From NCBI GenBank assembly GCA_012840135.1, contig DUMA01000022.1:186001-250000 (forward strand): a stretch of DNA of 64,000 bases, written 5' to 3'. Position 1 is the first letter of the stretch. Each line of letters starts with the position of its first letter. The position numbers were made by a program, and so were the translations under genes. The notes beneath the pieces were generated by a model. It was not told the origin of the DNA. It made no database searches and saw only the letters and a list, made by a program, of their open reading frames with translations. Of this stretch, positions 22,437 to 23,970 are shown piece by piece. Source of the DNA: Thermoanaerobacterales bacterium. Its GTDB lineage: Bacteria; Bacillota; Thermosediminibacteria; Thermosediminibacterales; Tepidanaerobacteraceae.

Positions 22437-22838
22437 CTAGCTCCTCCCTTCGCTTATAGCCATATTTAGCAGTTGAAAAGCTCTCTGAAGCTGATCCGCC
22501 GTCATGTTGTAAGAAAGAGTATTCTTGGTAAGTTCAACCATTTCCTTATCTATATCCACATTATTATTGTCATTTCTCATGGTGGTTTCATTCTGAACAA
22601 AAACTATCGGTTTTATATCGCTCATTTTCTTCACGTTACTTATATGGTTTTTATGGGTAGTAGTCAATGATAATACATTTTCCCGCATATTCTTTTCAAG
22701 TATTTCTTCAAAAGATACATCCGATCTTTTATAACCAGGAGTATCCGCATTGGCAATATTATTTGAAAGAACACTATTTCTGAGCCACTTTGCATCTAAA
22801 AGCTTTTCCATCAATGAAATACTGTCTAAAAGAGCCAT
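22437..22838 (-). CDS. flgB: FlgB, proximal rod protein; first gene of the flagellar operon
   Basis: 133 residues. Rod signature AKWLRNSVLSNNIANADTPGYKRSDVSF lies at the N terminus, and KNTLSYNMTADQLQRAFQLLNMAISEG at the C terminus. It is the first flagellar gene, and a riboswitch leader with a terminator lies just upstream (22952-23080). Confidence 0.96.
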   Translation of the reverse strand: MALLDSISLMEKLLDAKWLRNSVLSNNIANADTPGYKRSDVSFEEILEKNMRENVLSLTTTHKNHISNVKKMSDIKPIVFVQNETTMRNDNNNVDIDKEMVELTKNTLSYNMTADQLQRAFQLLNMAISEGRS

Positions 22839-22951
22839 GGGGGTTTTGCCACCTCTTTTTTCGACCTTATTTTATCAGTTTCGTCTAATTTAACTAAATT
22901 CGCCAAAAAAATCAAATTTCCTTTTTTAATGCCGTGATTTTATATTAAATT

Positions 22952-22978
22952 AAAAAAAAACTACCTTGAAAAGATAGT
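22952..22978 (-). terminator. Intrinsic terminator of the flgB leader (riboswitch expression platform)
   Basis: In the transcribed sense, arms ACTATCTT (22978-22971) and AAGGTAGT (22967-22960) enclose TTC and are followed by eight or nine T residues (to 22952). One arm can instead pair with riboswitch sequence: GAAAGGATAG (22992-22983) is complementary to CTATCTTTTC (22977-22968), with one G-U pair. The two structures exclude each other, so this reads as a regulated terminator. Confidence 0.85.
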
Positions 22979-22980
22979 CA

Positions 22981-23080
22981 TCCTATCCTTTCAGCAGCCT
23001 AGCTAGCATAGTACATTGTGCACCTTAGCCCTATGGCTTTGCGCCCTCCCCTTTCGGTGAAGTTTGCCTTTTTAGGGATT
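22981..23080 (-). ncRNA. c-di-GMP-I (GEMM) riboswitch ahead of flgB
   Basis: In the transcribed sense the leader contains AAAGGCAAAC (near 23071-23062), a GAAA-capped helix (CTTCACC-GAAA-GGGGAG) and then GGGCGCAAAGCCATAGGG with CTAA (near 23044-23026). These are the hallmark conserved blocks of the c-di-GMP class I aptamer (consensus GGCAAAC.. GAAA.. GACGCAAAGCC..). P1 can form between TCCCTA (about 23078) and TAGGA (about 22985). One core base is unusual: G rather than A in the ACGCAAAG block. A terminator follows at once. In Clostridioides difficile the same riboswitch class precedes flgB and switches transcription off when c-di-GMP is bound. The same logic is inferred here. Confidence 0.88.
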
Positions 23081-23142: not shown

Positions 23143-23174
23143 AAAAAATGCGTGAATCTATTCACGCATTTTTT
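23143..23174 (-). terminator. Intrinsic terminator after codY
   Basis: A perfect 15-base inverted repeat, AAAAAATGCGTGAAT (23143-23157) and its complement (23160-23174), ends in a T run in either direction. It lies 7 bases beyond the codY stop and separates codY from the flagellar leader. The rest of the 343-base gap (22839-23181) holds the riboswitch leader and A/T-rich sequence that should contain the flgB promoter. I could not fix a convincing promoter. Confidence 0.88.
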
Positions 23175-23181
23175 ACCAGCA

Positions 23182-23970
23182 TTAAGCTCTAACTTTTTTC
23201 AATTCTTCTAAAAGCTTATCATTTAGTATTTTGATGTAAGTACCTTTCATGCCCAGAGATCTTGATTCGATTACACCGGCGCTTTCAAATTTCCTCAAGG
23301 CATTTACAATGACGGACCTGGTAATTCCCACTCTATCTGCAATTTTGCTGGCCACCAGCAGACCTTCATTGCCGTCCAGCTCTTCAAAGATATGTTCCAC
23401 AGCTTCCAGCTCCGAGAAAGATAGCGTCCCTATGGCCAGCTGAACCACAGCTTTCTTGCGGGCCTCCTCTTCTATCTCCTCGCTCTTGGATCTTAGGATT
23501 TCCATTCCCACTACAGTGGCGCTGTATTCGGCCAGAACCAGGTCTTCGTCTGTAAATTTATCGCCAAACCTGGCCAGTACCAGAGTCCCCAATCTTTCAC
23601 CACCGCCGTTTATTGGAACTATTGTCGTGAGCTTATCAGGGTAGGGACACTTTGTTACATTGTCGAATACGCACTCCAAAGTATCTTGAGGCACATTTGG
23701 TCTGGTTTCGTGGATTTCCAACAGCTTATCATTGTAATGTTTCGGGAACATTTTTTCTTCCAGGACCTCGTCCTGAACAGCGTCACAGTCATAGTTTTCC
23801 ATCAGATAATAACCCAGCACCTTGCCTTTTCTGCTGGCCACGTAGGCATTGGCAGAAAGAACTTCTCCCAGCGTTTTGCACACCTCATTAAAATCCACAG
23901 GATATCCTGCAGATCTCTGTAACAACTTGTTGATCCTTCTTGTTTTTTCTAGTAAACTTTCACTCATCAT
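23182..23970 (-). CDS. codY: CodY, GTP- and branched-chain-amino-acid-sensing repressor
   Basis: 262 residues, the usual length. The N-terminal GAF-type sensor starts [26 protein letters not shown]. The C-terminal winged helix-turn-helix contains [43 protein letters not shown], the near-invariant CodY DNA-binding segment. It follows hslV-hslU, as in Bacillus and many Clostridia. CodY represses many stationary-phase genes including motility genes. No clear CodY box could be picked out here by eye. Confidence 0.97.

Follow-up and report, generated by a model that had tools for sequence, protein, structure and literature searches.

A c-di-GMP-I riboswitch and a candidate sigma-H-type promoter behind its terminator in a flagellar operon leader of the Thermosediminibacterales

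The flagellar operon in the 64 kb window (the whole stretch of DNA analysed here) appears to have two entrances. Transcription from an upstream promoter would be gated by a c-di-GMP-I riboswitch, and a sigma-H-type promoter behind the gate would start RNA free of that control; this arrangement is favoured here with reasonable, though not strong, confidence. A sequence-only reading of the same DNA had described a c-di-GMP-I riboswitch placed before the entire operon and equipped with a complete OFF logic. The riboswitch and its modelled OFF logic are very likely right, but they probably do not control the operon completely, because a second, ungated candidate promoter, conserved among relatives, lies behind the terminator.

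The aptamer between codY and flgB

All window features described here lie on the minus strand. The leader is bounded upstream by codY (23182-23970; NCBIfam NF003170, 410 bits, and TIGR02787, 395 bits, both over cut-off) and downstream by flgB (22437-22838; TIGR01396, 116.5 bits, over cut-off), the first gene of the flagellar operon, whose ATG follows the ribosome binding site GAGGTGG (22849-22855) at a distance of 10 nt. Behind flgB, closely packed flagellar genes fill 192-22434 on the same strand, including flgC, fliE, fliF, fliG, fliH, fliI, fliK, flgE and motA, as well as fliM, fliP, flhA and flhF-like and flhG-like genes. A hairpin with a T run at 23143-23174 (-19.1 kcal/mol, z -6.4) closes codY, so that, barring read-through from codY, the leader is a separate transcription unit; a hairpin resembling this codY terminator is found in the leaders of most relatives.

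A cmscan search with Rfam 15 places a c-di-GMP-I aptamer (RF01051) at 23078-22990, scoring 76.4 bits (E 3.1e-13) against a gathering score of 35 bits and covering model positions 1-87 of 87, that is, the full length. It is the sole Rfam match over the gathering cut-off in the window. The sequence-only reading had named this class on the minus strand and suggested a covariance-model search as the check, and the search bears it out. The three conserved core blocks that it listed, GGCAAAC, the GAAA loop (GNRA type) and CGCAAAGCC, are all present in the aptamer, and the ligand-contact bases known for the class are retained; binding of c-di-GMP would be expected of this computed structure. In AAGGCAAAC, the window carries G at Vc2 position 20, which we take to mark the c-di-GMP type, with A there marking the cGAMP-type GEMM-Ib. 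The earlier reading had also singled out a G for A in GGCGCAAAG as a variant core base. The G is real but appears to be an ordinary polymorphism, frequent among flgB-linked aptamers: the base is A in leader L040, from the same genus, and G in L041, L050 and many others. Altered ligand specificity arising from this base was considered and rejected, as all four bases are found at or near the position in flgB-linked aptamers.

Both the class and its placement before flgB are already known, and the window aptamer is a further instance. The precedent cited earlier from Clostridioides difficile holds (Cd1/Cdi1_3 there), and c-di-GMP-I aptamers, one of them of the GGC subtype RF03167, stand in 31 of 80 flgB leaders of the phylum, a non-random sample ranked by FlgB similarity. 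Within the class, 5 of 20 flgB leaders carry an aptamer above threshold. L042 lacks the aptamer itself but still carries its 5' flank, AAAAAATCCCTAAAAA, some 250-150 bases ahead of flgB, an apparent riboswitch deletion. Elsewhere, the flgB-linked matches in L143, L144, L145 and L148 span 175-187 nt, indicating a long insertion within the 87-position model, and L187 has tandem aptamers (224-307 and 380-463) ahead of one flgB.

The expression platform

Two mutually exclusive hairpins had been read behind the aptamer core, and both were recovered at the positions proposed. In the antiterminator, GAAAGGAUAG (22983-22992) pairs with CUAUCUUUUC (22968-22977) through 10 pairs, including one G-U (-13.2 kcal/mol, shuffle z -5.9). 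The alternative is an intrinsic terminator at 22952-22978, with an 8-bp stem (22978-22971/22967-22960), a 3-nt loop and a T run reaching down to 22952; it is weak at -6.9 kcal/mol (shuffle z -3.7). Given a short, A/U-rich terminator and the presence of thermophiles among the relatives, termination may be leaky. A built-in terminator scan also flagged 22993-22967, which is the antiterminator with a short T-rich stretch behind it and not a second terminator.

The unbound minimum-energy fold of the leader holds the antiterminator in the window, L040, L041 and L050, and in leader folding the antiterminator stays the default with aptamer helices P2 and P3 forced. For the window leader, aptamer plus antiterminator is computed at -34.6 kcal/mol vs -30.0 kcal/mol for aptamer plus P1 and terminator, both being equilibrium estimates at 37 C rather than a description of co-transcriptional order. 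A gap of a few kcal/mol is one that ligand binding could pay, turning a default ON state to OFF. In the computed structures, the terminator with its U run excludes the antiterminator, which shares the 3' strand of P1; termination in the cell would follow from this overlap.

The earlier proposal that P1 closure on TAGGA blocks the antiterminator stands in part. The P1 strand does overlap the antiterminator arm, but GGAU (22988-22985) is a likelier strand than TAGGA. Most likely, judging from base pairing, P1 is formed by AUCC (23079-23076) with GGAU, so that its 3' strand is nested wholly within the antiterminator 5' arm. In the window sequence taken alone, the registers are separated by only some 1 kcal/mol, so the preference depends on a single relative, L050, in which AUCCCU/AGGGAU gives a perfect register of 6/6 pairs whose strand is the antiterminator arm; the window forms 5/6 pairs in the same register.

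The platform is common to the window, L040 and L041, with one-sided changes only and all pairs kept in the latter two. In L050, which is identical to contig L060 of Thermosediminibacter litoriperuensis, two terminator pairs are changed on both sides (U-A, U-A to C-G, C-G) and the antiterminator is kept with 9/10 pairs in register; changes in the terminator stem are thus accompanied by changes in the P1/antiterminator arm, with pairing preserved in both. The core pairs of the terminator are kept 7/7 in four relatives. Both helices survive, with modest evidence of covariation from four sequences of few lineages. The OFF polarity proposed from the sequence is supported in the model by the default antiterminator, its overlap with the P1 3' strand and the compensatory changes in L050.

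The promoter upstream of the aptamer

Upstream of the aptamer, at 23130-23106, AGGATTTTAGCATTTTTTGTCTAAT is likely, from its sequence, to be the promoter of the riboswitch RNA, though with less certainty than the element downstream of the terminator. It is sigma-H-like, with GTCTAAT for GTCGAAT (a G-to-T difference in the -10-like part), and almost every Tepidanaerobacteraceae-like flgB leader keeps the GTCTAAT form; L050 and L043 have a TATAAT-bearing stretch in its place. Genome-wide, the GTCTAAT pattern alone is not above control. Two of the three other exact matches with an 11-base spacer precede MCP genes, but a motility-specific motif was rejected given that result. A sigma-70 consensus scan for promoters returned none on the minus strand.

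A candidate promoter behind the terminator

Between the terminator and flgB, at 22898-22922, lies the sigma-H-type promoter candidate AGGAAATTTGATTTTTTTGGCGAAT, of the form AGGAAAT-N11-GGCGAAT. It fits AGGAWWW-N11-RNNGAAT exactly and has the elements and spacing of the Bacillus subtilis SigH consensus, RNAGGAWWW N11-12 RNNGAAT. It is also a perfect match to AGGAWWW-N(9-13)-GNCGAAT, for which the genome has 31 matches vs 2 for the reversed pattern, an enrichment that rests on the tool's own reversed-pattern control. In most of these matches the spacer measures exactly 11 bases and the site is intergenic with an open frame following it; one precedes spo0A, a classical sigma-H target, in the same genome. 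The motif is enriched in 7 of 8 relatives too. The gene for sigma-H itself is present in the genome (TIGR02859, 373 bits vs a cut-off of 294.8) and in six relatives.

The element is perfect in the window, L041, L043 and L050, and no perfect copy arose in 200 dinucleotide shuffles of each leader. When the parts of five leaders that follow the terminator are aligned, invariance is seen in 19 of 25 element columns vs 25 of 94 other columns (Fisher p 1e-5, a guide only, as columns share phylogeny), and no block of the downstream leader is conserved more strongly than 22922-22898. The riboswitch-less leaders L044-L049 keep the element with one or two mismatches. From the motif and its computed conservation and enrichment, together with the sigma-H gene, we infer that a second, ungated promoter acts at 22922-22898, a conclusion that we regard as probable.

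A plain C. difficile-type arrangement, in which the riboswitch alone gates the operon and 22922-22898 is no promoter, seems unlikely. The class, placement and OFF direction do match Cd1/Cdi1_3 (PMC3649979, PMC5386303), and the riboswitch is found in many flgB leaders of the phylum. However, a non-promoter would not be expected at a block that exceeds the rest of the downstream leader in conservation, perfectly matches an enriched promoter motif at its preferred spacing, and persists where the riboswitch is absent (L044-L049) or decayed with its terminator intact (L043).

The last of these leaders, from a putative Thermosediminibacter oceani (G013), carries a c-di-GMP-I remnant ahead of flgB (L043, 1411-1533; 33.0 bits, below the gathering score). 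Its antiterminator retains 5/10 pairs and its terminator 7/7, the minimum-energy fold holds the terminator, the downstream sigma-H-type element is perfect, and the flgB frame is open. Read literally, this model predicts that upstream transcription should stop at the intact terminator, and the perfect downstream element offers a putative route to operon expression. Flagella have been observed in T. oceani and its cells were reported to be non-motile (PMC3035372). Leaky termination alone could explain the flagella. The species represents a natural test, its gate being broken shut.

The 3' half of the downstream element also resembles a Spo0A box (TGNCGAA), and GGTCGAA, a Spo0A-box-like heptamer, lies just 5' of the ribosome binding site at 22860-22866. 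Most Thermosediminibacteraceae-like leaders have TGTCGAA at this position; across L043-L050, GGTCGAA or TGTCGAA stands directly before the flgB ribosome binding site. It is conceivable, if rather improbable, that 22922-22898 and GGTCGAA are instead Spo0A operators that repress the flagellar operon at the entry to sporulation. In favour of this, the leader conserves TGGCGAA and TGTCGAA-like heptamers, the genome has spo0A, and the flagellar genes of C. difficile are inhibited by Spo0A (PMC5386303), but the AGGAWWW half is conserved as well, at a fixed 11-nt spacing that a Spo0A box alone would not need. The operator and promoter readings are compatible rather than exclusive, and Spo0A-box-like heptamers near the sigma-H-type element could add repression to it. 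That the window riboswitch is already non-functional and being lost, as it is missing or decayed in most relatives of the class (5 of 20 leaders having it above the threshold, with remnants in L042 and L043), is very improbable given its 76.4 bits, its intact ligand-contact bases and the platform pairs all kept in L040 and L041.

In the favoured arrangement of a gated and an ungated promoter, RNA started at the sigma-H-like promoter 23130-23106 would make the aptamer first. Without c-di-GMP, GAAAGGAUAG would pair with CUAUCUUUUC, the terminator would be blocked, and flgB and the operon would be transcribed. With c-di-GMP bound, P1 (AUCC 23079-23076 with GGAU 22988-22985) would be held closed and the antiterminator would lose its 5' arm, whereupon the 22978-22960 hairpin and its U run would end the transcript near 22952. 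The sigma-H-type promoter at 22922-22898 would start RNA behind this terminator, so that the operon could be expressed at any level of c-di-GMP when sigma-H is active.

Comparison with known systems

The closest counterpart is C. difficile, where measurements showed a terminated RNA of 160 nt and repression that depends on c-di-GMP (PMC3649979). As with Cd1/Cdi1_3, the window has an RF01051 aptamer at the head of the flgB operon with OFF control predicted to work through early termination directly after the aptamer (PMC3649979, PMC5386303). The C. difficile arrangement has a sigma-A promoter and a following 338 nt that contain the invertible flagellar switch; a construct without the riboswitch and native promoter was tested for a promoter, and the flagellar switch was judged to act after initiation (PMC5386303). 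Unlike that system, the window leader lies behind codY and has a sigma-H-type promoter candidate after the terminator, and no invertible flagellar switch of the C. difficile kind was found in it. SigH promoters of C. difficile, assigned by 5'-end sequencing, include AGGATTA-N11-GTAGAAT, and 22922-22898 shares their -35-like and -10-like elements and spacing (PMC7438776). SigH reduces motility expression in C. difficile (PMC3865298, PMC5386303), and an activating sigma-H flagellar promoter would be the opposite wiring. No report of a sigma-H promoter between a riboswitch terminator and flgB was found in the open-access literature, which likewise yielded nothing on point for promoters that bypass riboswitches.

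In the Bacillaceae leaders L119 (Bacillus salacetis) and L127 (Bacillus sp. P14.5), a c-di-GMP-I core similarly lies just after codY, at the place of a putative flgB leader; these were matched by pattern only, and their expression platforms differ from that of the window. By pattern match only, c-di-GMP-I-like cores downstream of codY in Bacillaceae occur at L119 3476, L127 3472 and L129 4533.

GGDEF is matched 8 times and EAL once in the window genome, which also carries 10 c-di-GMP-I riboswitches. Other c-di-GMP-I riboswitches of this genome (G000) are found at C11:26173-26257, C11:25985-26070, C6:262-350 and C11:76217-76300, with one tandem pair among them. Perfect sigma-H-type motifs lie 20-142 bases upstream of these riboswitches, and the genes behind them encode a transglutaminase-like protein, CheW and a Big_5 protein.

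Implications

With the window riboswitch, a known form of motility control is extended to anaerobes of a group that has received little study. Of the two elements, the downstream promoter is the more consequential: if it is active, riboswitch annotation alone would mispredict the regulation of the operon, and c-di-GMP and a sporulation sigma factor would provide two parallel entrances to motility. It is tentatively proposed, as a possibility we do not yet lean towards, that the flagellar master operon of the Thermosediminibacterales type combines a c-di-GMP-gated entrance with an overriding, conserved sigma-H entrance, which may permit transition-phase flagella at high c-di-GMP, and that in some lineages the gate has decayed and only the second entrance has been left.
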